Below are positions 336 through 63,946 of a DNA stretch of 64,000 nucleotides, piece by piece; positions within the stretch are counted from its first letter, which is position 1, and every line of letters starts with the position of its first letter. Both the position numbers and the translations under genes were made by a program. Origin of the DNA: Chondrosia reniformis (taxonomy: Eukaryota > Porifera > Demospongiae > Chondrillida > Chondrillidae); the NCBI GenBank assembly GCA_947172415.1, contig OX359190.1, forward strand, positions 2,108,001 through 2,172,000. The letters are read 5' to 3'. Under the pieces are notes generated by a model. The model searched no databases and was not told the DNA's origin. It saw only the letters and a program-made list of their open reading frames with translations.

Positions 336-3300
336 GTATTTCAAAGTGACCTCCTGACAGCTGGAGGAGGCCACGTCCTCAAACCAACTGAAATACCGGA
401 AGCGCTAATTGGTACCAGATTTGGCAAAACTGTTGTACACAATCAAAGAGTATTTGTCTGCGGAGAGCAGAGAGTTCAGATTTACGATGTTAAAACCAAT
501 AAATGGTCAGCACTACCTCCATCTCATTCTTACAGTGGAGCCACCATCATAAATGATCAGTTAACTCTGATAGGAGGTGAAGACACTCATTACACTCCTA
601 CAAGCAAGCTAGTGACATGGACAGGTGAAGAATGGTTAGAACTATATCCTCCAATGCACACTGGCCAAACCGATCCAGGTGTTCTTGCTATTGGAGACTT
701 AATAATTGTGTCTGGAGGAGATGGAGCAGTTGGCAGATCAGTAGACACAATTGAATTCCTGGATATTAACAAAAGAATATGGATACAGTCGAATCTGAAA
801 CTTCCTCGACCATTCACCATGATATCACATCACCACATGTCATTGTGTGGTGAATACATTTACATCTACTACAGGAATGGATATTTTTGGAGAATGAATA
901 AGAAGAATCTTATGGCTTCACTTACAACTAATGATGTACATCACTGGGAAGAGCTCGAGAATGCATCAGAGTGGAGTTCACTTTTACAATACAGCATCCT
1001 ACCAGTCCTAGTAGGTCCAAAAGGAATCTTCATTTTCGAGAAGAAGAAGTGGACACAAATTAGTAAAGAAACATCTTCTAATAACACTTGTACGGCTTCC
1101 CTCAACGAAAATACTTTTCTCACCATTGGAGGAGGATTAGGAGAATATCAGACAAGAGCTGTACAGTATGATATTGCAGTTGAAGTTAGTAACTTATTTA
1201 ATTACAAAACATTACATTTAAGTATTAAAAGTCTTGTTAACATTCGTTGCGCGTTTCGCGTACACTTTCTCCTTCAAATAGAAACATTAGAAGGTTTTAT
1301 TTCCTTCGTTAGAGTCACCTAACTTGTGCGCTCAGTGTACATGAAGCGCGTGTCAATGTTAACAAGACTCGTATTGTTTTAAGTTCTCGAACGAGTGTGT
1401 TCTACGAGCACTCTCACGAGTTTAAGTGGTAACTTCATTTGCTCTTTGCATTTGAAGGAGTGTGTACGTTTTATAAAAGTGCCAAGTTTTAAAACGGTTT
1501 CTTGTCGCGCTACACATGTAATTTAAGAGAAAGTAGTTTTATAGAAGTGCTAAGTTGTAAATCGACATTTAGACATACACTTGGAATTAATTTAACATCT
1601 TGTGTACGTTCATGTGATTAGTTATTCTTAGGAGGGAGATGCTAGCTTGAAGGAGGGAGACACTAGCTTGAAGGATGAATTTATCATTTTCAAGGTAGGT
1701 TTGTTGAAAGTTTATTTAGATATTTTCAACTGATATATTGTCATGTTGTAGGAGAAGGAAATGAAGGAGAAGCAGACATTGATTGATCATGTAGAGAGAT
1801 TGAAGCAATCTGAAAGAGAGTACGAACTAAAGGTCAAAGAACTGATGGAGAGAAACACTCAGTTGAAGGTACGGTATCCTACTGTAGCACCTCCCACACC
1901 TCTGCTGATTTAACCTGGCTGAATGTATTACCACTGCCTGCACACAACATCACTAGTTATCCACCAGTTTACACCCAATAGAGTAAGAATGGCTTCTGTA
2001 ACTGCTTCCAACTTATCTCTTGATGGTTCGTCTTTTGACTTTTTGGACATCTAAAGACGCAGTATTTTGTTGACAAAAGGTTTACTAAACTGTGTCTTTA
2101 GATGTCAAAAGATGAACCATCCAAAAGATACAGTACATATGGTACATACAGACACTTTGTTAAATAGATAGGCCAATTGAAGTCTCATCCAGACTGGTGA
2201 AAGTACATTGTGGACTAGAGAGCCGATAGTGCACTGACATTACAGATTATTTACAAATTAATGAGTTCCACCTCTTGACTTTGGTTTATAGGAATCTATA
2301 GCAAGTTAACACATCTCATGTATGTATGAAGATATAGGTTGTTGGGAATGCCTAATTTCCAATATATATTCAGAATCTTAAGATCTAGTGCTTAATGTGT
2401 CCACCTTTTTAATGTACTTTCTATGATGCAATTTTGAATTAACTGTGTAGTTTTTGAGTATTTGAAATTTACTTAAATCTTTCTACAAATCCGAGTCACT
2501 TCCATTGATATATGCTCTGTTGTGTGTATATACAGACGGAAGTAGCTGATTTGAGCAGCAAAGGAACAGAGACACAACAGAAATTCATTGGACGTCTTGA
2601 GGTATGAAGACACTGGAGAGGATTTATAATGTGTTATTTGACTTACAGGCTCTTAATACTGTAGGAGAAGATAGCTGAACTGACCAGAGAACTGAGAGAC
2701 ACTCAGAAAGACAATCTACACCTGAAAGAACGTAATACTGATTTGAAGGAATCCAACATTGAATTAAAGGAATCTAACATTGAATTAAAGGAATCCATTT
2801 CAGAATTGAGGAAAACAAATTCAGATTTAAGGGATTCCAATAGCCAGACTACTGTAAGTATCACTGTTGACATGCGATCAATACATATGTTATTTAATTT
2901 ACTTGTCCAATTTTCTTATTGTAGGAGAGGATAGCTGAACTGACCAGTGAACTGAGAGACACGCAGAAAGACAATCTACGCCTGAAAGAACGTAATAGTG
3001 ATTTGAAGGAGTCCAACAGCCAGTCTACTGTGAATGTCACTGATGACATGTAATGAATATGGTTTTTGATTAACCCTCTTATATTGATGTAGGAGAAGTT
3101 GGCTGAACTGACCAGAGAACTGAGAGACACTCAAAGAAATATAGCTGAAGTAACCAGAGAATTGAAAGATACTCAAACGAATGTAGACAAACTAGAAGTT
3201 TCCAAAGGGCACCTGGAAGAACGAATCAATGACTTAAATAAAACCAATTCTCATCTGGAGAAAACCAATTCTCTTCTGGAAGCAGGAAATTCTGATTTGA

Positions 3301-5284
3301 AGGTAATCCATTATTTTGACATGTTAATTTCATGTATGTATATAATGATAAGTGTAATGAGCTGAATGAACACTCTATATGTAACATGAGAATGTGTTAT
3401 TGCCTATTAATCTTAGATGGCACTTTGTACGTATATATAATATGTGCATAAATGTCACAACTAGTAACTGATTGACAAGACATCTATATACTGCAATGTA
3501 GACTAGACTACAGCAGCAACAGCAAAGTACAGAAAGAGTTGCAGAGTTACAAGAGGAGAACATCAAACTGAGAGAAGAGAAGGTATTTCATTTCACTATT
3601 ATTATACTCGGGAGTGATTATTGGTACTTCCTTTTAGCATGTTTCACTCAACTGCCACATAATATATGTGATAATTTAATGTAAAGTGGGACAACTCATC
3701 ATTGGGAAAACAATTTTCTCAAATTATAAGTATCAGCTGTCGATTATATACATGTGCAAGACCCGAGGGCAAGAGCATGTATAATCGATACACCACAAAG
3801 TGACGTTGTATAACTGTTAAACACTCCACCCCTAGGCCTTTTACAAGCTTTTAGGTATTCCATGCATGTATTCAGTTATTACGAGCTAGGCCAAAATGCC
3901 TCTTATTATAGTTATACAATGTTTATGGAATATAATTTGCCTTGATTGCCCCAGCAACAAAATGTATGACTGTAGAGACATCATATTTAGAGCAATTTGT
4001 CAATTCCATTTTTTTCATTCCTACTTGTGTAGAGCTCTCTTGAAGCTTCCTTAAATACTCTGAAAGAAGAGAAGGCTAAAGTTGAAAAGCAAGCTGAAGA
4101 GTTGAGGAGTGACATGTTGGGAAAGGTTGAAGGATTTGGTGCCATGTTAGAAGAAATGAAGAAATTATTAGACGTGTTGGAAGGTTAGCTTTAGCAGTCA
4201 TTATTTTGCAAAGAAGTGTGGACTTGTAAATTGAGCTATTTGATTCATTTCAACTATTTAGAGAAGCAAAGCAAAGGAGAATTAATGAGGTGAGTATATA
4301 TAGAAGCAATTGTATATATTATATAATTATATATCCTTAAGTTGGTCCTGATACAATAGTCTATTACAATTGACTTGTAACTATTTCTACTCATCAGATA
4401 TTGTGTAAACCTCACCACTGACAATAGTCTACAGGTGTGAAGGAAGTTAGTAATTTGACTTTAGTTGGGCGAAGTTGTTGTTACTTGTTTTTGAAAATAT
4501 AGAGAAACTGACTGACTCAAATTTGAAGGAATAATTGTTAATTTTTCAGTGAAGGTTTATTAGTCTAAAAGAACCAGTACTAAACCCACTTATGGTTAGT
4601 TCGTGTAATACAGTCAATTTTTAGAGAACTTTGACTCCCGCTAATTCCTTCACCAGTAAGTCTTCCTACTTTAATTGTACTCAAATTGTTGGCTCATTTG
4701 AAAGGTCTGCCAGACATCCTCTGCAGTCCCTGATCTCTGATTAAAGTATGTAAATGGAGTATATATTAAGGGGAGTCACTTCTCTAATATTATTATATAA
4801 TTACTCTTTAATGATACTCATAGAGTATGTCTTGTAGACTAGAATTCTGTGTTATTTTGTCCTTATAATATTCACTCAGAACTTCTACAATAGATTATAT
4901 GAAATGTGTCCGTAGACACTCCTAAAAGGTGCATGATGTACATATCTACGAATTAAGTATTTTATTACTTTCCATAGTACTGAACTCACAACCAATCACA
5001 TGGATGTGCTGCTGAGAAATGTCATAGATAAAGTTTCTCAGAAATGGGAGGAAATTGCAATATTCCTTCAGTTTAGAGATGCCAAGATTACCTCACTTAA
5101 GGACCCAAAGTTGAACAGTAAGGACCTTTGTAAAGATATGCTGAGATCTTGGCTGAGACAAGATAAAGATACTGGTAGCCGGCCAAGGACCTTGAAAACA
5201 TTGTACACTACACTTGTGGATCGAGACTGTAAGCCTGAGGCACTTAAACTTGTAGAAGACGTAAAGGGATTGGAGAAAAAGTGA
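336..5284 (+). CDS. KHD gene 1 (class A): kelch - heptad - coiled coil - Death domain protein, 5' end outside window
   Basis: Exons read by eye from splice sites: 336-1184, 1632-1694, 1752-1868, 2536-2601, 2665-2853, 2925-3029, 3093-3302, 3502-3582, 4033-4183, 4262-4289, 4978-5284. The joined frame is open for 721 residues to TGA at 5282. Exon 1 of the family (five residues) must lie before base 1. Exon 336-1184 encodes a six-bladed kelch propeller: IYDV..NKW, a run of strand-GG motifs, and a closing AVQYDIA strand. Only two seven-residue EGDxSLK repeats follow, ending in DEFIIFK. The next exons are charged coiled coil with Leu every seven residues (LKESNIE repeats). The last exon is a Death domain with QKWEEIA, MLRSWLR and SRPRTLKTLY. 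There is no signal peptide or membrane segment, so a cytosolic protein is likely. Death domains self-associate in apoptosis and innate immune signalling; the kelch part would bind a ligand. The kelch donor is GAA|GTTAGT where other copies have GAG|GTTAGT. AATAAA motifs at 5472 and 5485 may end the transcript. Confidence 0.85.
1632..1694 (+). repeat. coding heptad array, 2 repeats plus constant end
   Basis: Exon of exactly 3 x 21 bases: two EGDxSLK heptads, then DEFIIFK, then the donor gtaggt. This is the shortest array of the six in the window. The intron sequence just upstream is also shortened compared with the other copies. Confidence 0.85.
2022..2122. repeat. intronic hairpin element (imperfect inverted repeat)
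   Basis: The left arm contains GGTTCGTCTTTTGAC and ATCTAAAGAC; the right arm contains their reverse complements (GTCTTTAGATGTCAAAAGATGAACC). Arms are about 40 bases and the loop is short. The same element lies in the matching intron of the other KHD units at 32793-32902, 36101-36207, 51048-51156 and 62594-62708, and is missing from the 12407 gene. It may be an old MITE copied along with the gene, or an intronic RNA hairpin. Confidence 0.7.
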
Positions 5285-11729: not shown

Positions 11730-11750
11730 CTTTAACTTAAACTTGTTCCA

Positions 11751-11849
11751 CTCTCTCTAGTGTGACCACCTCTCTAGTGTGACCACCTCTCTAGTGTGAC
11801 CACCTCCCTAGTGTGACCACCTCTCTATTGTGCCCACCTCTCTAATGTG
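11751..11849. repeat. 17-base minisatellite (tgtgaccacctctctag), about 6 copies
   Basis: Tandem copies of a 17-base unit with single-base variants. Longer arrays of the same unit are at 20690-20882 and 23294-23569. Non-coding. Confidence 0.85.
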
Positions 11850-12085: not shown

Positions 12086-12457
12086 CAGGTTCTTTCACCA
12101 ATTATCTCCACCAGCTTCTGCATGGTAGACCGTCTTTGATCACATAGATCTTCTATAGCAGTTTGTAAAAACCATAGCATACATGATAAAGCTGTATTAG
12201 TAGTGTTCGCTATATAAACATTACGAAACGATGCATACCTTACTGTATTTGGAAGGCAACACTAACTCGGGTTTTCCTCTCAGGAGAGGCGGGATAAACC
12301 AGATCTACCGCCAATAGTTCAACGTGTCAATAGTTGTTATAGTGACAGTTACAGTTAGAACAATTATTGAAGTGTTTTTCGCAATTTTGTTCGCTTTGCT
12401 GAAGAAATGAACAAAGATAAAGTGAGTTTACTTAATTGTCTTTTGAAAGTAAAAGAT

Positions 12458-12485
12458 GGGCGGAGCCGCCTGGAATCGAACGGTC
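12458..12485. other. conserved GC palindrome with tRNA B-box-like motif in KHD intron 1
   Basis: Just after exon 1, GGGCGGAGCCGCC is followed by GGAATCGAACGG. On the minus strand the second part reads CCGTTCGATTCC, close to the Pol III B box. It is kept at 24193, 45958 and 59731, where the palindrome GGGCGGAGCCGCCC is perfect (one end base differs here and at 24193). It could be a tRNA-derived SINE remnant or a regulatory element. I found no full tRNA cloverleaf. Confidence 0.45.
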
Positions 12486-14733
12486 TGACTGCGTCTCCTA
12501 CACTCATTTAAAAAGACACAGGCTATAGACCTGAAATACTTAAAGCGTTGGGATGAGTCTAATCGTAGAACAGATATCGCAAGTGAACCTGCTCTGTCGG
12601 GACGTAGCTGGCATATCTTTACAGAGACTGTAGTTTCTGTTCGATTGGGTTTCTTTAGACTGTAGTTTTAAACCAGTCGACTATACGTATAAAGACACAA
12701 GCGATTCATATCCTTTTAGGGGACAAGTTAGAAAGCGAGGAACTGATTCCGTAATCTTTTCCATAACTGAATAGCCATTCTGTTGCTCTACTGGTGGGAA
12801 TTACTTGATCACTGTATATTCGTACGTTATGAGTTTACTAACTTGACTACGTATGAGCCATGCATGCACGTTAATACAAGATTTACGTTAAGAATATTTA
12901 GACAAGAAGATTTACGGCACTTACAGGCCTCAAAGTGTTCTTGCAATAAGCTGCTACAGAACTTGCTCCTTCCATGTCATTCAGTTCCTCCAGACAGTGA
13001 ATATTATCTTTTCTTTCTTGTCTCTAGGTATTTCGCAGTGACCTTCTGACAGCTGGAGGAGGTCACGTCCTCAAACCAACTAAAATACCGGAAATGCCTC
13101 AAGGAACCAAATTTGGCAAAGCTGTTTTACACAATTAAAGAGTATTTGTCTGCGGAGACCAGAGTGGAGAGCAGATAGTTCAGATTTACGATGTTAAAAC
13201 CATCAAATGGTCAACACTACCTCCATCTCCGTATTCTTGCAGTGGAGCCACCATCATAAAAGATCAGTTAACTCTGATAGGAGGTAAAGACACTCGTGGC
13301 ACTCATACAAGCAAGCTAGTGACATGGACAGGTGAAGAATGGTTAGAGCTATATCCTCCAATGCACACTGCCCGATACTGGCAAGGAGTTCTTGCAATTG
13401 GAGACTTAATAATTGTGTCTGGAGGAGTAGGAGCAGATGACAGAGAAGTAGACACAATTGAATTCCTGGATATTAACAATAAAAAGTGGATCCAGTCGAA
13501 TCTGAAACTTCCTCGACCATTATCACTACACCACATGACATTGTGTGGTGAATACATTTACATCTACTACTACTACAATGGATATTTTTGGAGAATGAAT
13601 AAGAAGAATTTTATGGCTTCACTTACCAATAATGAAGTACATCACTGGGAACGGCTCGAGAATGCACCATGGGACAGTTCACTTTTACAATACAGCACCC
13701 TACCAGTCGTAGTAGGTCCAAGAGGAATCTTCATTTTCGAGAAGAAGAAGTGGACACGAATTAGTAAAGAAACGTCTTATTACAACACCTGTACGGCTTC
13801 CCTCAATGGAACTACGTTTCTCACCATTGGAGGAGGATTAGGAGGAGAATATCAGACAAGAGCTGTACAGTACGATATTGCAGTTGAGGTTAGTAACTTA
13901 TTTAATTACAAAACATTACATTAAAGTATTACAAGTCTTGTTAACATTCGTTGCGCGCTGTGCGTGCACTTTCTCCTTCAAATAGAAACATTAGAAGGTT
14001 TTATTTCCTTCGTTAGAGTCACCTAACTTGTGCACTCAGTGTACATGAAGCGCGTGTCAATGTTAACAAGACTTGTATTGCTTTAATGTTCTCGTACGAG
14101 TGTGTTCTACGAGCGCTCTCACGAGTTTAAGTGGTAATTTGATTCCACTAACTAAGACTGTTAAGTCTTCTTGCTCTTAGCATTTGAAGGAGAGTGTGTA
14201 CGTTTATAAAAGTGCCAAGTTTTAAAACGGTTTCTTGTCGCGCTACACATGTAATTTAAGAGAAAGTAGCTTTATAGAAGTGCTAAGTTGTAAATCGGCA
14301 TTTAGACCTACACTTGGAATTAATTTAACATCCTGTGTACGTTCGTGTGATTAGTTATAACTCTGCAGTAGTGTTGATTGTAGACACAATTAATAAACTA
14401 CTTCCCAAACAGTAAATTGCTACAAAGTTTATTTGGCCGCTGAGTCTAAAGTCGGCCATTTGACCAGTGAAAAATAGTCGTCAGCATCTTAGGCAGATGA
14501 TTATTACTCGTATTAAAAAGATGTTGCTTTCTTGAATTATATTGTTAAGGAAAGATAAATAAAGGCAAATAGATTTGTCAGTTGTCATTGACTCCTACAA
14601 TGACTTGAGATGTGTTTGTTTTGTACAGTATAATTGAACCATAACTTTAAATAGCTTGAATACTTTTTTTATAAATACTATTCCAAAGCTGTAGTGTACG
14701 TAGGTGTATAAGAGTATTAACATGTATTCTTAG

Positions 14734-15132
14734 GAGGAAGACGCTAGCTTGAAGGAGGGAGACAGTAGCTTGAAGGAGGGAGACAGTAGCTTGAAGGAGG
14801 GAGACAGTAGCTTGAAGGAGGGAAGTGCTAGCTTGAAGGAGGGAGACAGTAGCTTGAAGGAGGGAGACAGTAGCTTGAAGGAGGGAAGTGCTAGCTTGAA
14901 GGAGGGAGGCGCTAGCTTGAAGGAGGGAGACACTAGCTTGAAGGAGGGAGGCGCTAGCTTGAAGGAGGGAGGCGCTAGCTTGAAGGAGGGAGACAGTAGC
15001 TTGAAGGAGGGAGACACTAGCTTGAAGGAGGGAGGCGCTAGCTTGAAGGAGGGAGACAGTAGCTTGGAGGAGGGAGACACTAGCTTGAAGGAGGGAGGCA
15101 CTAGCTTGAAGGATGAATTTATCATTTTCAAG
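14734..15132 (+). repeat. coding heptad array, 18 repeats plus constant end
   Basis: The exon is exactly 19 x 21 bases. It begins EEDASLK, continues with EG[DSG][STA]SLK units and ends DEFIIFK. Each 21-base unit encodes one seven-residue repeat with a single Leu. The array is also open on the minus strand (SFKLxxP repeats), a side effect of its base composition. Confidence 0.9.
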
Positions 15133-15823
15133 GTAAATTTGTTGAAAGTTTATTTAGATGTTTTTTCAAATGATATATTGTCATGTTGTAGGAGAAGGAA
15201 ATGAAGGAGAAGCAGACATTGATTGATCAAGTAGAGAGATTGAAGCAATCTGAAAGAGAGTACAAACTAAAGGTCAAAGAACTGATGGAGATAAACACTC
15301 AGTTGAAGGTACGGTATCCTACTGTAGCACCTCCCACACCTCTGCTGATTTAACCTGGCTGGATGTATTACCACTGCCAATAGTGCACTGACATTATACA
15401 TTATTTGCAAATTTAATGAGTTTCACCTCTTGACTTTGGATCACAGCAAGTTAACACATCTCATGTACGTATAGATACATATTATGCTAGTCTGTTGGGA
15501 ATACATTTACCAGATGCATTCAGAACCGAAATATCTGGTGTTGATCTTTTTAATGTACTTTTTATGAAGCAAATTGAATTTAGTACATATCACTGATTAA
15601 TTCCTTCCACAAGTGTTTGAAATTTGTTTAAATCTTTCTACAAAATACTACATCTCACTTCCATTGATATATGCTCTGTTGTGTGTATATACAGACGGAA
15701 GTAGCTGATTTGAGCAGCAAAGGAACAGAGACACAACAGAAAATCATTGGACCTCTTGAGGTATGAAGACACTGGAGAGGATTTATAATGTGTTATTTGA
15801 CTTACAGGCTCTTAATACTGTAG

Positions 15824-16658
15824 GAGAGGATAGCTGAACTGACCAGAGAACTTAGAGACACTCAGAAAGACAATCTACACCTGAAAGACCGTAATACAGA
15901 TTTAACGGAGTCCAACAGCCAGTCTACTGTGAGTGTCACTATTGACATGTAATGAATATGGTCTTTGATCAACCCTTTTTGATGTAGGAGAAGATGGCTG
16001 AACTAACTAGAAAACTGAGAGACACTCAGAAAGACAATCTACACCTGAAAGAACGTAATACAGATTTAACGGAGTCCAACAGCCAGTCTACTGTGAGAGG
16101 CACTATTGACATGTAATGAATATGGTCTTTGATCAACCCTTTTTGATGTAGGAGAAGATGGCTGAACTAACTAGAGAACTGAGAGACACTCAGAAAGACA
16201 ATCTACACCTGAAAGAACGTAATACAGATTTAACGGAGTCCAACAGCCAGTCTACTGTGAGTATCACTATTGACATGTAATGAATATGGTCTTTGATCAA
16301 CCCTTTTGATGTAGGAGAAGATGGCTGAACTAACTAGAGAACTGAGAGACACTCAGAAAGACAATCTACACCTGAAAGAACGTAATACAGATTTAACGGA
16401 GTCCAACAGCCAGTCTACTGTGAGAGGCACTATTGACATGTAATGAATATGGTCTTTGATCAACCCTTTTTGATGTAGGAGAAGATGGCTGAACTAACTA
16501 GAGAACTGAGAGACACTCAGAAAGACAATCTACACCTGAAAGAACGTAATGCAGATTTGAAGGAGTCCAACATTGAATTAAAAGAATCTAACATTGAATT
16601 AAAGGAATCCATTTCAGAATTGAAGAAAACACATTTGGATTTAAGCAGCCAGACTACT
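15824..16658 (+). repeat. tandemly duplicated coiled-coil exons (five in a row)
   Basis: Four 105-base exons and one 180-base exon share the start E(K/R)(M/I)AELTR(E/K)LRDTQKDNLHLK. The introns between them (about 60 bases, with tgacatgtaatgaatatgg) are also nearly identical, so whole exon-intron cassettes of about 163 bases were duplicated recently. The donors alternate between gtgagt and gtgaga. Being phase 0 on both sides, each copy adds 35 residues without breaking the frame. Confidence 0.85.
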
Positions 16659-17489
16659 GTAAGTATCACTTTGTTGACATGTTATCCATACATGTTACAT
16701 ATAGTTACTTATCCAATCTTCTTATTGTAGGAGAAGATGGATGAACTGACCAGAGAACTGAGAGACACTCAAAGGAATGTAGACAAATTAGAATATTCCA
16801 AAGTACACCTGGAAGAGCGTATCAATGACTTAAAGAAAATCAATTCTCATCTGGAGAAAACCAATTCTCTTCTGGAAGCAGGAAATTCTGATTTGAAGGT
16901 AATCCACTATTTTGACATGTAGATTTCTTATTTTCATGTATGTGTGTATTAATGAGCTGAATGAACACTGTATGTAACATGTGAATGTGTTATTGCCTAT
17001 TAATCTTAGATGGCACTTTGTACGTATGTATTTATATATATGTCAGATGCATTCACAACTAGTAACTGATTGACAAGACATCTATGTACTGCAATGTAGA
17101 CTAGACTACAGCAGCAACAGCAAAGTACAGAAAGAGTTACAGAGTTACAAGAGGAGAACATCAAACTGAGAGAAGAGAAGGTATTTCATTTCACTATTAC
17201 TGTACTCGGGAGTGATTATTGGTACTTCCTTTTAGCATGTTTCACTCAACTGCCACATAATGTAGAATGTGATAATTTAATTTAATGTAAAGTGGGACAA
17301 CTCATCATTGGGAAAACACTTTTCTCAAGTTATAAGTATCAGCTGTCGATTATATGCATGCACAAGACCCGAGGGCAAGAGCATGTATAATTGATACACC
17401 ACAAAGTGACGTTGTATAACTGTTATACACTCCACCCCTAGGCCTTTTACAAGCTTTTAGGTATTTACTCAGTTATCAGGGGAAAATTG

Positions 17490-17547
17490 CATTGTATAAC
17501 TATAATAAGAGCTAGGCCAAAATGTCTCTTATTATAGTTATACAATG
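17490..17547. repeat. perfect 22-base inverted repeat in intron
   Basis: The arms CATTGTATAACTATAATAAG and its complement (22 bases each, 17490-17511 and 17526-17547) enclose a 14-base loop, giving a perfect hairpin. A decayed version is at about 52302-52358 and only the right half is clear in gene 1 (near 3900). The surrounding 200 bases are shared by the three genes and may be a small transposon. Confidence 0.7.
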
Positions 17548-18946
17548 GTTATGGAATATAATTTACCTTGAATGCCCCAGCAACGGAATGTATGACTGTA
17601 GACTTCATATTTAGAGCAATTTTTCAATTCCATTTATTCATTTCTTCTTGTGTAGAGCTCTCTTGAAGCTTCCTTAAATACTTTGAAAGAAGAGAAGGCT
17701 AAAACTGAAAAGCAAGCTGAAGAGTTGAGGAGTGACATGTTGGGAAAGGTTGAAGGATTTGGCTCTGTTCTAGAAGAAATGAAGAGATCATTAGACATGT
17801 TGGAAGGTTAGCTTTTGTAGTCATTATTTTGCAAAGAAGTGTGGACTTGTTAATTGAGCTATTTGATTCATTTCCACTATTTAGAGAAGCAAAGCAAAGG
17901 AGAATTAATGAGGTGAGTATGTACGTATAAGCAATTCACAAATCTTTAAGTTGGTCCTGATACAATAGTCTATTACAGTTGACTTGTATCTATTTCTACT
18001 CATCAGATATAGAGTAAACCTCACCACTGACAATAGTCTACAGGTGTGAAGGAAGCTAGTAATTTGACTTTAGTTGGGCAAAGTTGTTGTTACTTGTTTC
18101 TGAAAATATAGAGACTCTGAAACTAAACTGACTCAAGTTTGAATGGAGACTGGAATAATTGTTAATGTTATTTTAATAACGTTTTTTGTCTAAAAGAACC
18201 CGTACTAAACCCACTTATGGTTAGTTTGTGCAATACAGTCAATTTTTAGAGAACTTTGACTCTTGCTAATTCCTTCACCAGTAAGTCTTCCTACTTTAAT
18301 TTTACTCAAATTGTTAGCTCACCATTTGAAGGGTCTGCCAGACCTCCTCTGCAGTCCCTGATCTCTGACTAATGTACACCAGTTAACTGGGCCAGTTGAC
18401 TATGTACACAGGAAGATTAATTTTCTAATTTTATTCATTACTCTTTAATGATATTCATAGAGTATGTCTTATAGACTAGAATTCTGTGTTATTTTATCCT
18501 TATAATATTCACTCAGTAATTCTACAATAGATTACATGAAATGTGTCTGTAGACACTCCTTAAAGGTGCATGATGTACATATCTACGAATTAAGTATTTT
18601 ATTACTCAATGGCTTTGAGTGAAGATATTCTTTTCACAGAACTGAACTGAAAACTAGACACATGGCTGTAGTACAAAGAACAATTATTGATGAAGTGCCT
18701 CAGAAGTGGAAGGGAATAGCAACTTACCTTGAATTTGAACTAAACAAAATTGATACAGTTGAAGCTGAGCATCGACAAAATAACAAGGAGCAGTGTCGTA
18801 AGATGTTGGCAGAGTGGTTGAAATATGCCAAAGATTCTGGCGAGCTACCAAGGACCTTGAAATCCTTGCACAATGCTCTTGTGGATCGAGACTGTAGACC
18901 AGAGGCAGAAAAACTTGTGGAAGAAGTTAAGAGAATGATGAAATGA

Positions 18947-24141: not shown

Positions 24142-24156
24142 ATGAACAGAGATAAA
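24142..24156 (+). other. orphan KHD first coding exon (MNRDK) with promoter-proximal sequence
   Basis: ATGAACAGAGATAAA followed by the donor gtgagt, in the same upstream context as the first exons at 12407, 45907 and 59679, and followed by the GC palindrome at 24193. No kelch exon follows in the expected 600 bases; homology is lost near 24240. The next KHD exons on this strand are the heptad exon at 32280 and the kelch exon at 33622. It may be the true first exon of gene 4, separated by an intron enlarged by insertions, or a dead promoter. Confidence 0.7.
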
Positions 24157-45324: not shown

Positions 45325-45335
45325 CTTTAACTTAA

Positions 45336-45906: not shown

Positions 45907-48900
45907 ATGAACAGAGATAAAGTGAGTTTACTTAATTGTCTCTTAAAAGTAAAAGATGGGCGGAGCCGCCCGGAATCGAACGGTCTGACTGCGTCTCCTA
46001 CACTCATTTAAAAAGACACAGGCTATAGATCTGAAATACTTAAAGCGTTGGGATGAGTCTAATCGTAGAACAGATATCGCAAGTAAACCTGCTCTGTCGG
46101 GACGTAGCTGGCATATCTTTACAGAGACTGTAGTTTCTGTTCGATTGGGTTTGTTTAGACTGTAGTTTTTAAACCAGTCAACTATACGTATAAAGCCACA
46201 AGCGATTCATATCCTTTTAGGGGACAAGTTAGAAAGCGAGAAACTGATTCGTAATCTTTCCGTAACTGAATAGCCTTTCTGTTGCTCTACTGGTGGGAAT
46301 TACTTTATCACTGTGTATTCGTACGTTATGAAGTTTACTAACTTGACTACGTATGAGCCATGCATGCACGTTAAGACAAGATTTACGTTAAGAATATTTA
46401 GACAAGAAGATTTACGGCACTTACAGACCTCAAAGTGTTCTTACAATAAGCTGCTACAGAACTTGCTCCTTCCATGTCGTTCAGTTCCTCCAAACAGTAA
46501 ATATTATCTTTTCTTTCTTGTCTCTAATTAGGTATTTCGAAGTGACCTGGCAGCTGGAGGAGGTCACTTCCTCAAACCAACTAAAATACCGGAAACGCCT
46601 AATGGAACCAGTTTTGGCAAAGCTCTTGTACACAATCAAAGAGTATTTGTCTGCGGAGAGCAGATAGTTCAGATTTACGATGTTAAAACCAATAAATGGT
46701 CAACACTACCTTCATCTCCGTATTCTCACAGTGGAGCCACCATCATAAACGATCAGTTAACTCTGATAGGAGGTTTGGACACTCGTGGCTATCATACAAA
46801 CAAGCTAGTGACATGGACAGGTGAAGAATGGTTTGAGCTATATCCTCCAATGCACAATGCCCAAACCGATCCAGGTGTTCTTGCAATTGGAGACTTAGTA
46901 ATTGTGTCAGGAGGACAAGGAGCAGATCGCAGAGAAGTAGACACAATTGAATTCCTGGATGTTAAGAATAAAAAGTGGATCCAGTCGAATCTGAAACTTC
47001 CTCGACCATTAGCATATCACCACATGGCATTGTGTGGTGAATACATTTACATCTACTACTGCGATGGATATTTTTGGAGAATGAATAAGAAGAATTTTAT
47101 GGTTTCACTTACAGTAAATAAAGTACATCACTGGGAAGAGCTCGAGTATGCACCTGTGGAAAGTTCACTTTTACAATACAGCATCCTACCAGTCATAGTA
47201 GGTCCAAAAGGAATCTTCATTTACGAGAAGAAGAAGTGGACACAAATTAGTAAAGAAACGTCTTATCCCTACAATTGTACGGCTTCCCTCAACGGAACTA
47301 CGTTTCTCACCATTGGGGGATTAGGAAGATATCAGACAAGAGCTGTACAGTACGATATTGCAGTTGAGGTTAGTAACTTATTTAATTACAAAACATTACA
47401 TTAAAGTATTAAAATTCTTGTTAACATTCGTTGCGCGCTTCGCGTGAGCTTTCTCCTTCAAATAGAAACATTAGAAGGTTTTATTTCCTTCGTTAGAGTC
47501 ACCTAACTTGTGCGCTCAGTGTGCACGAAGCGCGTGTCAATGTTAACAAGACTTGTATTGTTTTAAGTTCTCGTACGAGTGTGTTCTACGAGCGCTCTCA
47601 CGAGTTTAAGTGTTAACTTGATTCCACTAACGAAGACTGTTAAGTCTTCTTGCTCTTTGCATTTGAAGGAGAGTGTGTACGTTTTATAAAAGTTTTAAAA
47701 CAGTTTCTTGTCGCGCTACACATGTACTTTAAGAGAAAGTAGTTTAATAGAAGTGCTAATTTGTAAATCGGCATTTAGACCTACACTTGGAATTAATTTA
47801 ACATCCTGTGTACGTTCGTGCGATTAGTTATAACTATGCAGTAGTGTTGGTTGTCGACACAGTTAATAAACAGCTTCCTCAAATTGCTACGAAGTTTATT
47901 TGGCAGTCTAAAGTCGGCCATTTGACCAGTGAAAAATAGTCGTACGTCTTAGGCAGATGATTATTACTCGTATTAAAGAGATGTTGCTTTCTTAAATTAG
48001 GTTTTCCTTGTTAAAGTGTGTATGAAAGATAAATAAAGGCAAATAGATTTGTCAGTGAGAATTATTCATATAATTATATTAGGATTGTCAGTGAATGTTT
48101 AAGTATATATATCTATAGGATTGTTCCTTGTTCCTCAATTGTAAGTTGACATTTTACTTTACAGTACAAAAATAGGACAGCTAGGTACTGCGTATACAGC
48201 TAGGTACTGTGTATACAGCTAGGTACTGTGTATACAGCTAGGTACTGTGTATACAGCTAGGTACTGCGTATACAGCTAGGTACTACATATACAGCTAGGT
48301 ACTGCGTATACAGCTAGGTACTACGTATACAGCTAGGTACTACATATACAGCTAGGTACTACATATACAGCTAGGTACTACATATACAGCTAGGTACTAC
48401 ATATACAGCTAGGTACTACATATACAGCTAGGTACTACGTATACAGCTAGGAACTACATATACAGCTAGGTACTACATATACAGCTAGGTACTACATATA
48501 CAGCTAGGTACTACATATACAGCTAGGTACTACGTATACAGCTAGGTACTACATATACAGCTAGGTACTACATATACAGCTAGGTACTACATATACAGCT
48601 AGGTACTACGTATACAGCTAGGTACTACATATACAGCTAGGTACTGCGTATACAGCTAGGTACTACGTATACAGCTAGGTACTGCGTATACAAATATTGA
48701 CTTTGATATTTTCAACTGATATATTGTCATGTTGTAGGAGAAGGAAATGAAGGAGAAGCAGACATTGATTGATCAAGTGGAGAGATTGAAGCAATCTGAA
48801 AGAGAGTACGAACTAAAGGTCCAAGAACTGATGAAGAGAAACACTCAGTTGAAGGTACGGTAAGTTTATTTGGCAGTCTAAAGTCGGCCATTTTACCAGT

Positions 48901-51900
48901 GAAAAATAATCGTCAACGTCTTAGGCAGATCATTATTACTCGTATTAAAAAGATGTTGCTTCTTAAATTAGGTTTTCCTTGTTAAAGTTAGTATATACGT
49001 AAAAGATAAATAAATTTGTCAGTGAATGTTTTGAAAATTATTCATATGTATTCATATAATTATATTAGTATTTTAAGTATACGTAACTATAGGATTGTTC
49101 CTTGTTCCTCAATTGTAAGTTGACATTTTACTTTACAGCCAAAATTAGGACAGCTAGGTACTGCGTATACAGCTAGGTACTACATATACAGCTAGGTACT
49201 ACATATACAGCTAGGTACTACATATACAGCTAGGTACTACATATACAGCTAGGTACTACATATACAGCTAGGTACTGCATATACAGCTAGGTACTGCATA
49301 TACAGCTAGGTACTACGTATACTACTTATACGAATATTGACTTATTGACTCCTACAATGACTTGAGATGTGTTTGTTTCATACAGTATAATTGAACCATA
49401 ACTTTAAATCCTTTTTTTATAAAATGCTAAAAGCTGTAGTGTACGTAGGTGTATAAGAGTATTAACATGTATTCTTAGGAGGGAGACAGTAGCTTGAATG
49501 AGGGAGACAGTAGCTTGAAGGAGGGAGGCGCTAGCTTGAAGGAGGGAGACACTAGCTTGAAGGAGGGAGGCACTAGCTTGAAGGAGGGAGACACTAGCTT
49601 GAATGAGGGAAGCGCTAGCTTGAAGGAGGGAGATGCTAGCTTGAAGGAGGGAGACGCTAGCTTGAAGGAGGGAGACACTAGCTTGAAGGAGGGAGACGCT
49701 AACTTGAAGGAGGGAGACACTAGCTTGAAGGAGGGAGACACTAGTTTGAAGGAGGGAGACAGTAGCTTGAAGGAGGGAGACGCTAGCTTGAAGGAGGGAG
49801 ACGCTAGCTTGAAGGAGGGAGACACTAGCTTGAAGGAGGGAGACGCTAACTTGAAGGAGGGAGACGCTAACTTGAAGGAGGGAGACACTAGCTTGAAGGA
49901 GGGAGACACTAGTTTGAAGGAGGGAGACAGTAGCTTGAAGGAGGGAGACGCTAGCTTGAAGGAGGGAGACGCTAGCTTGAAGGAGGGAGATGCTAGCTTG
50001 AAGGAGGGAGACGCTAGCTTGAAGGAGGGAGACACTAGCTTGAAGGAGGGAGACACTAACTTGAAGGAGGGAGACGCTAACTTGAAGGAGGGAGACTCTA
50101 GCTTGAAGGAGGGAGACACTAGTTTGAAGGAGGGAGACAGTAGCTTGAAGGAGGGAGACGCTAGCTTGAAGGAGGGAGACGCTAACTTGAAGGAGGGAGA
50201 CACTAGCTTGAAGGAGGGAGACGCTAACTTGAAGGAGGGAGACGCTAACTTGAAGGAGGGAGACACTAGCTTGAAGGAGGGAGACACTAGTTTGAAGGAG
50301 GGAGACAGTAGCTTGAAGGAGGGAGACGCTAGCTTGAAGGAGGGAGACGCTAGCTTGGAGGAGGGAGACACTAGTTTGAAGGAGGGAGACACTAGCTTGA
50401 AGGAGGGAGACGCTAGCTTGAAGGAGGGAGACACTAGCTTGAAGGAGGGAGGCACTAGCTTGAAGGAGGGAAACGCTAACTTGAAGGAGGGAGACGCTAG
50501 CTTGAAGGAGGGAGACGCTAGCTTGAAGGAGGGAGACACTAGCTTGAAGGAGGGAGGCGCTAGCTTGAAAGAGGGAGACGCTAGCTTGAAGGAGGGAGAC
50601 ACTAGCTTGAAGGAGGGAGATGCTAGCTTGAAGGAGGGAGGCGCTAGCTTGAAGGTGGGAGACGCTAGTTTGAAGGAGGGAGACATTAGCTTGAAGGATG
50701 AATTTATCATTTTCAAGGTAGGTTTGTTGAAAATTTATTTTGATATTTTTTCAACTGATATATTGTCATGTTGTAGGAGAAGGAAATGAAGGAGAAGCAG
50801 ACATTGATTGATCAAGTAGAGAGTTTGAAGCAATCTGAAAGAGAGTATGAGCTAAAGGTCCAAGAACTGATGAAGAGAAACACTCAGTTGAAGGTACGGT
50901 ATCCTACTGTAACACCTCCCACACCTCTGCTGACTTAACCTGGCTGGATGTATTAACACTGCCTGCACACAACATCACTAGTTATCCACCAGTTTACACC
51001 TAATAGAGTAGGGATTACTTCTGTAACTGCTTCCAACTTATCTTTTGATGGTTCGTCTTTTGACTATTTGGACATCTAAAGATGCAGTTTGGTAAATATT
51101 TTGTTGACAAAAGGTTTACCAAACTGTGTCTTTAGATGTCAAAAGATGAACCATCCAAAAGATACAGTACATATGGGACATACAGACACATTGTTAAATA
51201 GAAAGGTCAATTGAAGTCTCATCCTGACTGGTGAAAGTACATTGTGCACTAGAGAGCCGATAGTGCACTGACATTACAGATTATTTACAAATTTAATGAG
51301 TTTCACCTCTTGACTTTGGATCACAGTTAACACATCTCATGTATGTACATATAGATACATATATGCTAGTCTGTTGGGAATACATTTACCATTCGAGTAT
51401 GCATTCAGAACCGAAATATCTGGTGTTGATCTTTTTAATGTCCTTTTTATGAAGCAAATTGAATTTAGTATCTTGAGGTATGAAGACACTGGGAGGATTT
51501 ATAAATGTGTTATTTGACTTACAGGCTCTTAATACTGTAGGAGAGAATAGCTGAACTGACCAGAGAACTGAGAGACATTCAGAAAGACAATCTACACCTG
51601 AAAGAACGTAATAGTGATTTGAAGGAGTCCAACAGCCAGTCTACTGTTCACCTGGAAGAACGTATCAATGACTTAAAGAAAATCAATTCTCTTCTGGAAG
51701 AAGGCAATTCAGAATTGAAGGTAATCCATTATTTTGACATGTAGATTTCTTATTTTCATGTACGTATATACGTTGATATTTATTTTTGATGTACATACAC
51801 GTATATACCAGTGAAATGCATGTGAATGTGTTATTGCATATTAATATTAGATGGCACTTTGTACGTGTATATGTATAATATGTGCATGTACATATATATC

Positions 51901-53702
51901 AGACACATTCACAACTAGTAACTGATTGACAAGACATCTATGTATACTGCAATGTAGACTAGACTACAGCAGCAACAGCAAAGTACAAAAGAATTTGCAG
52001 AGTTACAAGAGGAGAACATCAAACTAAGAGAAGAGAAGGTATTGCATTTCACTATTACTATACTCTGGAGTGATTATGGGTACTTCCTTTTAACATGTTT
52101 CACTCAACTGCCACATAATATAGAATGTGACAATTTGTCTATTATCATTGGGAAAATGTTTTTCTAAAGTTATAATCCTGTATCAGCTGTTGATTATATA
52201 TATATATACATGCACGAGATCCGAGGCGGGAGCATGTATACTGTGATGTTGTAACTGGTATACACTCCGCCCCTAGGTATTTACTCAGTTAGGGAAAAGC
52301 GCATTGTATAACTATAATACGAGCTAGGCTGAATGCCTCTTATTATAGTTATACAATGGTTATGGAATATAATTTGCCTTGGTTGCCCCAGCAACGGACT
52401 GTATGACTGTAGAGACTTCATATTTAGAGCAATTTTTCAATTCCATTTATTCATCCCTACTTGTGTAGAGCTCTCTTGAAGCTTCCTTAAATACTTTGAA
52501 AGAAGAGAAGGCTAAAGTTGAAAAGCAAGCTGAAGAGTTGAGGAGTAACATGTTGGGAAAGGTTGAAGGATTTGGTGCCATGTTAGAAGAAATGAAGAGA
52601 TCATTAGAGGTGTTGGAAGGTTAGCTTTTGTAGTTATTATTTTGCAAAGAAATGTACTAGACTTGTTAATTGAGTTATTTGATTCATTTCCACTATTTAG
52701 AGAAGCAAAGCAAAGGAGAATTAATGAGGTGAGTATTTATAGAAGCAATTCTTATATTATACATCTTTAAGTTGGTCCTGATACAATAGTCTATTACAGT
52801 TGACTTGTAACTTATTTCTACTCATCAGATATAGAGTAAACCTCACCACTGACAATAGTCTACAGGTGTGAAGGAAGCTAGTAATTTGACTTTAGTTGGG
52901 CAAAGTTGTTATTACTTGTTTCTGAAAATATAGAGAAACTGACTCAAATTTGAATGAAGTCTGGAATAATTGTTAATATTATTTTAGTAAAGTTTTAGTA
53001 CTAAACCCACTTATGGTTAGTTTGTGCAATACAGTCAATTTTTAGAGAACTTTGACTCTTGCTAATTCCTTCACCAGTAAGTCTTCCTACTTTAATTTTA
53101 CTCAAATTGTTGGCTCACCATTGAAGGGTCTGCCAGACCTCCTCTGCAGTCCCTGATCTCTGATTAATGTACACCAGTTAACTGGGCCAGTTGACTATGT
53201 ACACAGGAAGATTAATTCTCTAATTTTATTCATTACGCTTTAATGATATTCATAGAGTATGTCTTATAGACTAGAATTCTGTGTTATTTTGTCCTTATAA
53301 TATTCACTCAGAACTTCTATGTGTCCGTAGACACTCATAAAACATGCATGATGTACGTATCTAAGAATTAAGTATTTTATTGCTTTCCACAGCACTGAAC
53401 TCACAACCAGACACATGGATGTGTTACTGAGAAAGGTCATTGATAAAGTTCCTCAGAAATGGGAGGAAATTGCAATTTGCCTTCAGTTTGAGGACAATAA
53501 GATAGCCTCACTTAAGGATGGAAATTTAAAAATTGAAGAACGATGTAGAGCCATGCTGAGATCTTGGCTGAGACCAGATAAAGATACTGGTAGCCGGCCA
53601 AGGACCTTGAAAACCTTGTACACTGCACTTGTGGATCGAGACTGTAAGCCTGAGGCACTTAAACTTGTAGAAGAAGTAAAGGGACACGTGGAGAAGGAAT
53701 GA
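45907..53702 (+). CDS. KHD gene 5 (class A) with 58 heptad repeats
   Basis: Exons: 45907-45921 (MNRDK), 46532-47368 (kelch), 48738-48854 (extra coiled-coil copy), 49479-50717 (heptads), 50777-50893, 51541-51720, 51958-52038, 52469-52619, 52701-52728, 53393-53702. Together 3,075 bases, 1,025 codons, no stop, all phases consistent. This is the only complete and intact KHD gene wholly inside the window. The kelch exon has one residue deleted near its start (SDLAAGGG). The 22-residue exon TEVADLSS... has been deleted; only its last bases remain near 51473. Exon 51541-51720 is a fusion of two sister exons, joined at QSTV-HLEER in frame, without an intron. The final Death domain is class A (VIDKVPQKWEEIAICLQF, MLRSWLR, SRPRTLKTLY). 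It is followed by an ELOVL copy at 54521. Confidence 0.88.
48177..48689. repeat. 19-base minisatellite (acagctaggtactacatat), 27 copies
   Basis: Exactly 27 x 19 bases with variants at three positions (acatat, acgtat, gcgtat, gtgtat). It lies in the intron after the kelch exon and directly before the extra coiled-coil exon at 48738. Confidence 0.93.
49150..49320. repeat. 19-base minisatellite, second array, 9 copies
   Basis: Exactly 9 x 19 bases. The sequences before this array (48865-49149) repeat those before the first array (47895-48176), so the intron was duplicated around a coiled-coil exon, probably by unequal exchange between arrays. Confidence 0.92.
49479..50717 (+). repeat. coding heptad array, 58 repeats plus constant end
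   Basis: A single 1,239-base exon, exactly 59 x 21. Residues follow EGD[STA][SN]LK; the last unit is DEFIIFK as in every copy. A higher-order pattern of about eight to ten units recurs (order DTS, DAN, DAN, DTS, DTS, DSS, DAS, DAS near units 17-24 and again near 35-42), evidence for recent block expansion. There is no frameshift or stop in any unit. Both strands are open throughout. Confidence 0.93.
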
Positions 53703-59678: not shown

Positions 59679-62600
59679 ATGAACGAAGATAAAGTGAGTT
59701 CACTTAACTGGTCTCTTGTGAGTAAAAGATGGGCGGAGCCGCCCGGAATCGAACGGTCTGACTGCGTCTCCTACACTCATTTAAAAAGACACAGATATCG
59801 CAAGTAAACCTGCTCTGTCGGGACGTAGCTGGCATATCTTTACAGAGACTGCATGTAGTTTCTGTTCGATTGGGTTTGTTTAGACTGTAGTTTTAAACCA
59901 GTCAACTATACGTATAAAGACACAAGCGATTCATATCCTTTTAGGGGACAAGTTAGAAAGCGAGGAACTGATTCCGTAATCTTTCCGTAACTGAATCACC
60001 TCTCTGTTGCTCTACTGGTGGCAATTACTTTATCACTGTATATTCGTACGTTATGAAGTTTACTAACTTGACTACATATGAGCCATGCATGCACTTTAAG
60101 ACAAGGTTTACGTTAAGAATATTTAGACAAGAAGATTTACGGTACTTACAGACCTCAAAGTGTTCTTACAATAAGCTGCTACAGAACTTGCTCCTTCCAT
60201 GTCATTCAGTTCCTCCAAGCAGTGAATATTATCTTTTCTTTCTTGTCTCTAATTAGGTATTTCAAAGTGACCTCCTGACAGCTGGAGGAGGTCACGTCCT
60301 CAAACCAACTGAAATACCGGAAATGCCTATTGGAATCAATTTTGGCAAAGCTCTTGTACACAATCAAAGAGTTTGTGTCTGCGGAGCGAAGAGAGGAGAC
60401 CAGAGTGTATTTGTCTACAAAAAGCAGATAGTTCAGATTTACGATGTTAAAACCAATAAATGGTCAACACTACCTTCATCTCCGTATTCTTACAGTGGAG
60501 CCACCATCATAAATGATCAGTTAACTCTGATAGGAGGTGAAGACACTCATTACACTCCTACAAGCAAGCTAGTGACATGGACAGGTGAAGAATGGTTAGA
60601 GCTATATCCTCCAATGCACACTGCCCGATCCATTCCAGGTGTTCTTGCTATTGGAGACTTAGTAATTGTGTCAGGAGGATATGGAGCAGATGGAAAAGAA
60701 GTAGACACAATTGAATTCCTGGATATTAAGACTAAAAAGTGGATCCAGTTGAATCTGAAACTTCCTCGATCATTATCACTACACCACATGGCATTGTGTG
60801 GTGAATACATTTACATCTACTGGGATGGATATTTTTGGAGAATGAATAAGAAGAATTTTATGGCTTCATTTACAACTAATGATGTACATCACTGGGAACA
60901 GCTCAAGGATGCACTAGGGAACAGTTCACTATTACAATACAGCACCCTACCAGTCGTAGTAGGTCCATATGGAATCTTCATTTTCGAGAAGATGAAGTGG
61001 ACACAAATTAGTAAAGAAACGTCTTATTACAGCAATTGTACGGCTTCCCTCAACGGAACTACTTTTCTCACCATTGGAGGAGGATCTGGAGGATTTCTCG
61101 GAGGACAATATCAGACAAGAGCAGTACAGTACGATATTGCAGTTGAGGTTAGTAACTTATTTAATTACAAAACATTACATAAGGTATTAAAAAGTCTTGT
61201 TAATATTAGTTGCGCGCTTCGCGTGCACTTTCTCCTTCAAATAGAAACATTAGAAGGTTTTATTTCCTTCGTTAGAGTCACCTAACTTGTGCGCTCAGTG
61301 TACACGAAGCGCATGTCAATGTTAACAAGACTTGTATTGCTTTAATGTTCTCGTAAGAGTGTGTTCTACGAGCGCTCTCACGAGTTTAAGTGGTAACTTG
61401 ATTCCACTAACGAAGACTGTTAACTCTTCTTGCTCTTAGCATTTGAAGGAGAGTGTGTACGTTTTATTATAAAAGTGCCAAGTTTTAAAACAGTTTCTTG
61501 TCGCGCTACACATGTAATTTAAGAGAAAGTAGTTTTATAGAAGTTCTAAGTTGTAAATCGGCATTTAGACCTACACTTGGAATTAATTTAACATCCTGTG
61601 TACGTTCGTGTGATTAATTATAACTATGCAGTAGTGTTGGTTGTAGACACAATTAATAAACTACTTCCTCAACAATACTGCTACAAAGTTTATTTGGCAG
61701 TCTAAAGTCGGCCATTTTACCAATGAAAAATAGTCGTCAACGTCTTAGGAAGATATTACTAAAGAGATGTTGCTTTCTTAAATTAGGTTTTCCTTGTTAA
61801 AGTGTATGAAAGGTAAATAAAGGCTAATAGATTTATCTATTACCCTTTGAATGTTTTGAAAATTATTCATGTGTATACAGCTAGGTACTACGTATTGACT
61901 CCTACAATGACTTGAGATGTGTTTGTTTCATATAATATTGAACCATAACTTTAAATAGTTTGAATGCTTTTTTTATAAAATGCTATTCCAAAGCTGTAGT
62001 GTACGTAGGTGTATAAGAGTAATAACATGTATTCTTAGGAGGAAGACACTAGCTTGAAGGAGGGAGACACTAGCTTGAAGGAGGGAGACACTAACTTGAA
62101 GGAGGGAGACACTAGCTTGAAGGAGGGAGACACTAGCTTGAAGGAGGGAGACACTAGCTTGAAGGAGGGAGACACTAGCTTGAAGGAGGGAGACACTAGT
62201 TTGAAGGAGGGAGGCACTAGCTTGAAGGAGGGAGACACTAGCTTGAAGGATGAATTTATCATTTTCAAGGTAGGTTTGTTGAAGTTTATTTTGATATTTT
62301 TACTGATATATTGTCATGTTGTAGGAGAAGGAAATGAAGGAGAAGCAGACATTGATTGATCAAGTAGAGAGATTGAAGCAATCTGAAAGAGAGTACGAGC
62401 TAAAGGTCAAAGAACTGATGAAGAGAAACACTCAGTTGAAGGTACGGTATCCTACTGTAACACCTCCCACACCTCTGCTGATTTAACCTGGCTGGATGTA
62501 TTAACACTGCCTGCACACAACATCACTAGTTATCCACCAGTTTACACCTAATAGAGTAAGGATTACTTCTGTAACTGCTTCCAACTTATCTTTTGATGGT

Positions 62601-63946
62601 TCGTCTTTTGACTTTTTGGACATCTAAAGACGCAGTTTGGTAAATATTTTGTTGACAAAAGGTTTACCAATTAAACTGTGTCTTTAGATGTCGAAAGATG
62701 AACCTTCCAAAAGATACAGTACATATGGGACATACAGACACTTTGTTAAATAGATAGGTCAATTGAAGTCTCATCCTGACTGGTGAAAGTACATTGTGGA
62801 CTAGAGAGCCAATAGTGCACTGACATTACATATTATTTACAAATTTAATGAGTTTCACCTTTTGACTTTTGTTTATAGGAATCTACAGCAAATTAACACA
62901 TCTCATGTATGTACATAGATATATTTGTATGTTACCACTGCTAGTCTGTTGGAAATGCCTAATTTCCAATATATATTCAGTATCTTAAGATCTGGTGCTT
63001 AATGTGTCCACCTTTTTAATGTACTTTCTATGATGCAATTTTGAATTAACTGTATAATTTTTGAGTAAGAGTATTTGAAATTTGTTTAAATCTTTCTACA
63101 AATGCTACATCTCACTTCCATTGATATATGCTCTGTTGTGTGTATATACAGACGGAAGTAACTGATTTGAGCAGCAAAGGAACAGAGACACAACAGAAAA
63201 ACATTGGACTTCTTGAGGTATTAGGACACTGGAGAGGATTTATATTGTGTTATTTGACTTACAGGCTCTTAATACTGTAGGAGAGGATAGCTGAACTGAC
63301 CAGAGAACTGAGAGACACTCAGAAAGACAATCTACACCTGAAAGAACGTAATAATGATTTGAAGGAATCCAACATTGAATTAAAGGAGTCCAACATTGAA
63401 TTAAAGGAATCCATTTCAGAATTGAGGAAAACAAATTTAGATTTAAGGGATTCCAATAGCCAGACTACTGTAAATATCACTGTTGACATGTGATCAATAC
63501 ATATGTTATTTAATTTACTTGTCCAATCTTCTTATTGTAGGAGAGGATAGCTGCACTGACCAGTGAACTGAGAGACGCTCAAAGGAATGTAGCTGAACTG
63601 ACCAGAGAACTGAGAGATGCTCAGAAAGACAATCTACACCTGAAAGAGCGTAATAGTGATTTGAAGGAGTCCAACAGCCAGTCTACTGTGAGTGTCACTG
63701 TTGACATGTAATGAATATGGTTTTTGATCAATCCCCTTATATTGATATAGGAGAAGTTGGCTGAACTGACCAGAGAACTGAGAGATGCTCAAAGGAATGT
63801 AGAGAGACTAGAAGTTTACATAGAAAAAGGTATCAAAAGTTAGCTAGTATAGTGCTGTTTTGCAAAGAAATGTACTAGACTTGTTAATTGAGCTATTTGA
63901 TTCATTTCTACTATTTAGAAAAGCAAAGCAAAGGAGAATTAATGAG
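59679..63946 (+). CDS. KHD gene 6: kelch - heptad - coiled coil, 3' end outside window
   Basis: Exons: 59679-59693 (MNEDK), 60257-61147 (kelch, 297 codons, the longest), 62039-62269 (10 heptads), 62325-62441, 63152-63217, 63281-63469, 63541-63687, 63751-63829, 63919-63946, leaving phase 2 for the Death-domain exon beyond base 64000. No stop. The kelch exon shares the GDQSVFVYKK insertion with gene 4 and has an enlarged loop in the last blade (GGGSGGFLGGQYQTR). The coiled-coil part is short: the exons TRLQQQQ... and SSLEASL... are missing. Exon 63751 instead ends with a new donor, AAAAAG|GTATCA, 15 bases before the old gttagc donor position, and this restores the phase (1) needed by the next exon. 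Confidence 0.85.
62039..62269 (+). repeat. coding heptad array, 10 repeats plus constant end
   Basis: 11 x 21 bases; almost all units EGDTSLK, ending DEFIIFK. Confidence 0.9.

Follow-up and report, generated by a model that had tools for sequence, protein, structure and literature searches.

A tandem gene family joining a kelch propeller, a coiled coil and a Death domain in the sponge Chondrosia reniformis: candidate intracellular recognition receptors

The source of varied recognition repertoires in animals lacking antibodies is an open question, and it is raised again by a 64,000-nucleotide stretch of the genome of the sponge Chondrosia reniformis (assembly GCA_947172415.1, contig OX359190.1, positions 2,108,001 to 2,172,000; hereafter the window, from the first letter of which all positions are counted). 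On its plus strand lie tandem genes in which a kelch exon, an exon of 21-base repeats, coiled-coil exons (labelled C1, C2 and so on) and a Death exon follow each other, and the joining of kelch, coil and Death domain in one gene is well supported. As an explanation held with slightly better than even confidence, these genes might encode intracellular recognition receptors that form a tandem family, in which a diversifying propeller would bind, the coil would assemble and a FADD-like Death domain would signal. If true, the answer offered to the question would be new: a compact propeller in which the twelve loops of one face outpace the silent sites, carried by the same chain as a Death domain.

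Gene structure and reading frame

In gene 1 (336..5284 from the kelch exon to the Death stop, 11 exons, 721 amino acids in the window), gene 4 (33622..40407 over the same extent, 13 exons, 826 amino acids) and gene 5 (45907..53702), scripted and rechecked joins of the kelch exon, the 21-base-repeat exon, the coiled-coil exons and the Death exon give a single open frame with GT-AG at all junctions and no internal stop. Gene 5 is complete from ATG to stop, with 985 amino acids in nine exons. Gene 6 (60257..63946, from the kelch exon to C8) is equally free of stops over eight exons, its tiny first exon (59679..59693) left out of the count, up to exon C8 at 63946 and leaves the window ahead of any Death exon. 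Joining in one frame, as proposed in an initial annotation of this DNA, was thus confirmed for genes 1, 4 and 5 and for gene 6 up to the end of the window. The further proposal that five copies share one exon plan had to be restricted, as a first exon was found only in genes 2, 5 and 6, the number of coil exons varies, gene 2 (12407..18946, 15 exons) contains a stop and the Death exon of gene 6 falls outside the window.

Intron phase is 0 throughout, up to C8, an exon of 28 bases with a phase 1 intron before and a phase 2 intron after it; this pattern occurs in all four copies that possess C7, C8 and a Death exon, and also in gene 6, where C5 joins to C8. The length of pairwise indels is divisible by three in 53 of 53 cases for the kelch, C7 and Death exons and in 26 of 96 for four introns, the pairwise counts being non-independent. 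Splice phase, frame-keeping indels and the purifying selection on the Death exon and most of the coil exons documented below argue for one translated kelch-coil-Death unit and, on balance, the exons appear to behave as such, as judged from gene sequence and not from transcripts.

The first exons, identified by blastn and alignment, code for MNKDK in gene 2, MNRDK in gene 5 and MNEDK in gene 6. By the same approach no nearby first exon was found for gene 4, the homology of which to the other copies begins at about 33259, directly past a remnant, gene 3, that consists only of a repeat exon and coil exon C1 (32280..32620); the first exon of gene 1 would fall outside the window. A profile search of the six-frame open stretches of at least 25 residues of the window gave no further kelch or Death copies, the sole other row having an E value of 0.74-0.82.

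Diversification of the propeller face

The kelch exon exceeds the cut-off of the Pfam family Kelch_1 in four of the five genes, among them gene 1 (336..1184, 30.2 bits) and gene 4 (33622..34500, 40.5 bits), while the exon of gene 2 (13028..13888), of which only the part after the stop contributes, reaches 18.3 versus 20.1 bits. The best sequence match in the PDB is KLHL12 (E 2.9e-15). An AlphaFold2 model of the gene 5 exon (46532..47368), calculated from an alignment of the five window sequences, is a kelch propeller with a predicted local distance difference test score (pLDDT) of 82.6 and a predicted template modelling score of 0.82, and its best Foldseek match is KLHL20 (E 1.2e-12), so that kelch motifs and a propeller fold were found by Pfam, model and structure search alike. 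Six blades, with the ring closed by an N-terminal strand, were assigned by hand from the strand list of the model, in which DSSP recovers the strands of blades II, IV and V incompletely. NCBIfam provided just weak kelch matches of the sialate-epimerase type. In the joined proteins of genes 1 and 5, the two that were scanned, Pfam detected no BTB, BACK, NACHT or LRR domain at E 0.01. Comparison of the kelch and Death alignments with viral contigs (36 and 32 pattern stretches) and of kelch with prokaryote genomes (41) revealed no confirmed relatives, which is unsurprising for an animal-type gene.

Over the whole kelch exon, the pooled ratio of amino-acid (pN) to silent (pS) differences among the five copies is 1.21, with a pooled silent change of 0.080. 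The excess resides in the BC and DA loops, twelve in number. They make up the face with which kelch domains of solved structure grip their ligands, and the ligand surface of KLHL20 is shaped by them (PMC6720452). With the loop labels set at first, pN is 0.223 and pS 0.081 (ratio 2.75) on this face, 0.088 and 0.086, a ratio near 1, in the AB and CD loops of the opposite face, and 0.037 and 0.077 in the strands. Equally, 46 of 75 ungapped columns of the BC/DA face are variable versus 41 of 188 in the strands and other loops, a share that was reached in none of 301 rotations of the labels along the sequence, and a minimum of 74 amino-acid and 5 silent changes is required in the ungapped columns of the face versus 48 and 20 elsewhere. 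Since these labels had been set with the alignment already seen, the count was repeated with labels derived solely from the strand order of the model. These mechanical labels gave a pN of 0.205 and a pS of 0.089 for the BC and DA loops (ratio 2.31; 40 of 75 columns variable), a ratio of 0.69 for the strands and of 0.96 for the opposite loops; pN minus pS on the face was above zero in 5000 of 5000 bootstrap replicates, and the silent deficit had a binomial P of 0.003.

The DNA flanking the kelch exon differs by 0.046 in the 300 bases before and by 0.062 in the 250 bases after it, and six of the seven other introns compared pool at 0.033-0.098, the exception being the C6-C7 intron (0.28), which is unlike the rest in gene 4 (p 0.44-0.45) and was excluded as a yardstick. 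In the face codons the second position changes most (0.251) and the third least (0.112). Omission of any one copy leaves the pN of the face at 0.206-0.243 and its pS at 0.059-0.099, and neutral evolution of the face codons, simulated 1800 times on a star tree, reached a ratio of 2.31 four times and one of 2.75 twice. Diversifying selection is the simplest reading of the change in the BC and DA loops, because weak constraint cannot make amino-acid change exceed that at silent sites and in introns. Two other candidates were rejected: kelch exons merely older than the introns, as their pooled silent change of 0.080 is near the intron values, in contrast to the Death exon with its high silent divergence between types, and local hypermutation of the loops, as silent change in the face loops is not raised (0.081 versus 0.077 in the strands). 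Furthermore, the 37 two-state informative sites of the kelch exon divide the five genes into nine different groupings, with incompatibility in 371 of 666 site pairs; such a mosaic is as expected from gene conversion, with a contribution of recurrent change at selected sites.

Death modules, repeat linker and coil

Taken alone, all four Death exons exceed the cut-off of Pfam PF00531 (22.6 bits), with 23.2 bits in gene 1 (4978..5284), 38.4 in gene 2 (18640..18946), 32.3 in gene 4 (40107..40407) and 29.6 in gene 5 (53393..53702), and the nearest sequences in the PDB are FADD (E 6.6e-6) and RIPK1 (E 3.2e-4). In the profile search of joined proteins, a check proposed in the initial annotation, the Death domain of the two proteins scanned passes in gene 5 (23.7 bits) and is below the cut-off in gene 1 (19.3 versus 22.6). 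The Death exons are under purifying selection (pooled pN/pS 0.47) and fall into two types, type A in genes 1 and 5 and type B in genes 2 and 4, with a silent divergence (dS) of 0.88-1.14 between the types. The intron abutting the Death exon is only 5.6-11.0% different between type A and type B genes; the alignment breaks a few tens of bases 5' of the Death exon and shows little recovery over the 250 bases after it (regions 4937-5284, 18600-18946, 40070-40407 and 53352-53702). Old Death exon types stand here behind near-identical introns, and therefore similar kelch-coil bodies bear either of two old Death modules, a pattern that points to exon-level exchange of these modules.

Between propeller and coil, the 21-base unit is repeated 2, 18, 8, 58 and 10 times in genes 1, 2, 4, 5 and 6, the 58 units of gene 5 occupying an exon at 49479..50717. 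The designation of this linker as heptad is correct for the seven-codon unit; on the other hand, its sequence EGDTSLK, with one leucine per seven residues, reads as an atypical coiled-coil heptad. A 19-base minisatellite lies close to the repeat exon in both gene 4 and gene 5 (35277-35422, 48177-48692 and 49150-49322). In the coil exons proper the a/d periodicity beats 200 of 200 shuffles in each of the five genes, by which the earlier suggestion of oligomerisation through the coiled coil gains support of the kind that sequence can give. The coil exons C1, C2, C6 and C7 pooled over genes 1, 2 and 4 have a pN/pS of 0.50 and the 14 exons of C3/C4 type one of 0.39 over their first 93 bases. Exons of the latter type number two, five, four, one fused and two in genes 1, 2, 4, 5 and 6; gene 5 is without C2 and has one fused C4-C5 exon, and gene 6 is without C6 and C7. 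At 15819-16572 and 36780-37375 a whole coil exon together with its short intron is duplicated in tandem as a 164-base unit, and every copy retains splice sites and frame.

The window holds further elements. Two isolated pieces of the family are an orphan tiny first exon coding MNRDK (24142..24156) and an orphan coil exon C1 (48738..48854) within the intron between the kelch and repeat exons of gene 5, both on the plus strand. A fatty-acid elongase (ELO, PF01151) is present twice between the receptor genes on the plus strand, at 6292-7058 (57.7 bits) and 54497-55006 (76.8 bits), and its first copy may be broken because it is split over several frames. On the minus strand, pieces of Sgf11 and SCA7 zinc fingers, as in ataxin-7-like 3 proteins, occur at about 8072-10045 and have been duplicated alongside the receptor genes, similar sequence being found around 43385-43783 and 55939-57992. 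Retroelement-like frames at 27096-28518 on the same strand contain a GIY-YIG match just below the cut-off (21.4 versus 22.6 bits), as in Penelope-like elements. A 182-codon open frame with an early methionine (29851-30399, plus strand) has no Pfam match, and a 17-base minisatellite recurs between the genes (11748-11854, 20688-20882 and 23294-23547).

Readings of the family and comparison with known systems

In the favoured reading of an intracellular receptor family, the BC/DA face of the kelch propeller would bind a varying target, either non-self or altered-self, while the seven-residue repeat, with its 2 to 58 units, would set the spacing between the propeller and the long coiled coil. The coil might gather and cluster the chains, and the C-terminal FADD-like Death domain might subsequently recruit Death-domain partners and thereby initiate an inflammatory or cell-death response. 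The products, if expressed, would probably be cytosolic, as suggested by a first exon that codes for just MNxDK and by the absence of a membrane-receptor domain from the two joined proteins in the Pfam scan. The role of sensor or adaptor put forward in the initial annotation gains support from ligand-face diversification with constrained strands.

Several observations weigh against this reading. Gene 2 has an in-frame TAA at codon 42 (13136-13138) in place of the CAA of gene 1, which may mark a pseudogene, an allele or a sequencing error. The evidence for selection consists of five paralogues at one locus analysed by counting methods, the first of which used labels set with sight of the alignment, and the contrast between the face and the opposite-face loops is modest with both the first (46 of 75 versus 18 of 45 columns, P 0.037) and the mechanical labels (40 of 75 versus 17 of 49, P 0.045). 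The Death model, built from four sequences, is poor, with five helices and a pLDDT of 63.4; FADD/Fas are top-ranked in its Foldseek search, yet with E values of 0.9-1.9, and as none of the 51 matches had an E value of 0.001 or below, the Death assignment rests on the sequence profiles. Exon C6 alone is under weak constraint (pN/pS 0.86), C2 has amino-acid and zero silent changes among six pairs, and the repeat units give no sign of constraint (pN 0.055, pS 0.047).

Among the alternatives, an allorecognition or self-marker family, in which the variable propeller would separate self from same-species non-self and the Death domain would trigger rejection, is unlikely but the most probable of them: mosaic variation among the tandem copies fits it, and loop-limited diversification has likewise been reported for the WD40 propeller of HET-D/HET-E in the accessible text of PMC1805685, but no outward-facing or membrane part was found in the two joined proteins scanned. 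Relaxed constraint, by which the loops would drift without diversifying selection, is quite improbable. The near-unity ratio of the opposite-face loops (0.088/0.086) indicates that loops are generally looser than strands, and only five paralogues are available; drift, however, cannot account for amino-acid change (0.205-0.223) in excess of that at silent sites (0.08-0.09) and in introns (0.046-0.062 next to the exon, 0.033-0.098 pooled in six of seven introns), and neutral simulations met the ratio of 2.31 in just 4 of 1800 runs.

Very little probability is equally assigned to kelch and Death exons in separate transcripts or to a kelch-only form as the main product. In genes 2, 4 and 5, read-through beyond the kelch donor runs into a stop some 11 codons on, so that a short kelch-only form might arise by read-through into the next intron; phases and frame are nevertheless retained across 8 to 15 exons, including the phase 1/phase 2 mini-exon in four copies, and none of the indels in the kelch, C7 and Death exons disrupts the frame. 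The least weight falls on a ubiquitin-ligase substrate receptor or cytoskeletal scaffold that employs the Death fold for binding only: the nearest solved propellers are indeed KLHL and KLHDC substrate receptors and the coil weakly matches scaffold coils, but BTB and BACK were missing from both scanned proteins, and a conserved scaffold role leaves change focused on the ligand face unexplained.

Extending the receptor reading, the family might represent an undescribed class of germline-diversified animal immune receptors, for which the term variable-propeller Death receptor could be used, with a whole ligand face reshaped by diversifying selection and exchange among tandem copies, with Death exons that can replace one another and with a minisatellite that determines how far the sensor reaches from the coil; this wider proposal is put forward tentatively, its chances being somewhat below even. 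None of the matches listed in literature searches on this architecture, on variable kelch and on sponge Death proteins was a kelch-coil-Death protein, subscription papers being mostly outside reach.

The known systems each share a part of this architecture. BTB-Kelch proteins such as KLHL20, KLHL12 and KEAP1 have the same propeller fold with the BC and DA loops as ligand surface, as far as the available text goes (PMC6720452). They differ in that BTB and BACK were not found in the joined genes 1 and 5, which have Death domain and coil instead, and in that the ligand face diversifies here between copies. FADD and RIPK1 are the nearest PDB sequences to the Death exons. FADD combines its Death domain with a DED and RIPK1 with a kinase, and neither carries kelch. 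TRIM5alpha resembles the family in that variable recognition loops are combined with a coiled coil and with a domain for signalling or effector function, but has SPRY in place of kelch, RING and B-box in place of Death, and the reversed order. With animal NLRs that carry a Death domain (NLRD), of which sponges have many, the family shares this domain on a proposed intracellular receptor, whereas NACHT and LRR were not found in genes 1 and 5, the Death domain is C-terminal and the sensor would be a kelch propeller. The sponge Dysidea avara has been reported to possess 128 Death genes and 25 NLRD, with kelch absent from the main text of that report (PMC12909245). Genes reported to respond to microbial molecules in two sponges include, for either species, a kelch-motif gene and Death-domain genes as separate entries (PMC6208332).

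The closest parallel in working is found in fungi. In HET-D/HET-E of Podospora anserina, a family that exchanges sequence and elicits a death-type response, the propeller loops d-a and b-c, which lie on its interaction face, are positively selected, according to the accessible text of PMC1805685. Diversifying change is found on the corresponding BC and DA loops here too, with ratios of 2.75 or 2.31 by counting methods. The fungal NWD proteins combine NACHT with WD40, whereas here the propeller is kelch, no NACHT was found in the joined genes 1 and 5, and Death takes the place of HET; equally, repeats of high identity vary there and single-exon propellers vary among each other here. Because HET-D/HET-E have NACHT and WD40, the likeness is one in working and not in membership and, if the receptor reading is true, the sponge family would have put a variable propeller to use independently of fungal allorecognition, from which this solution is known.

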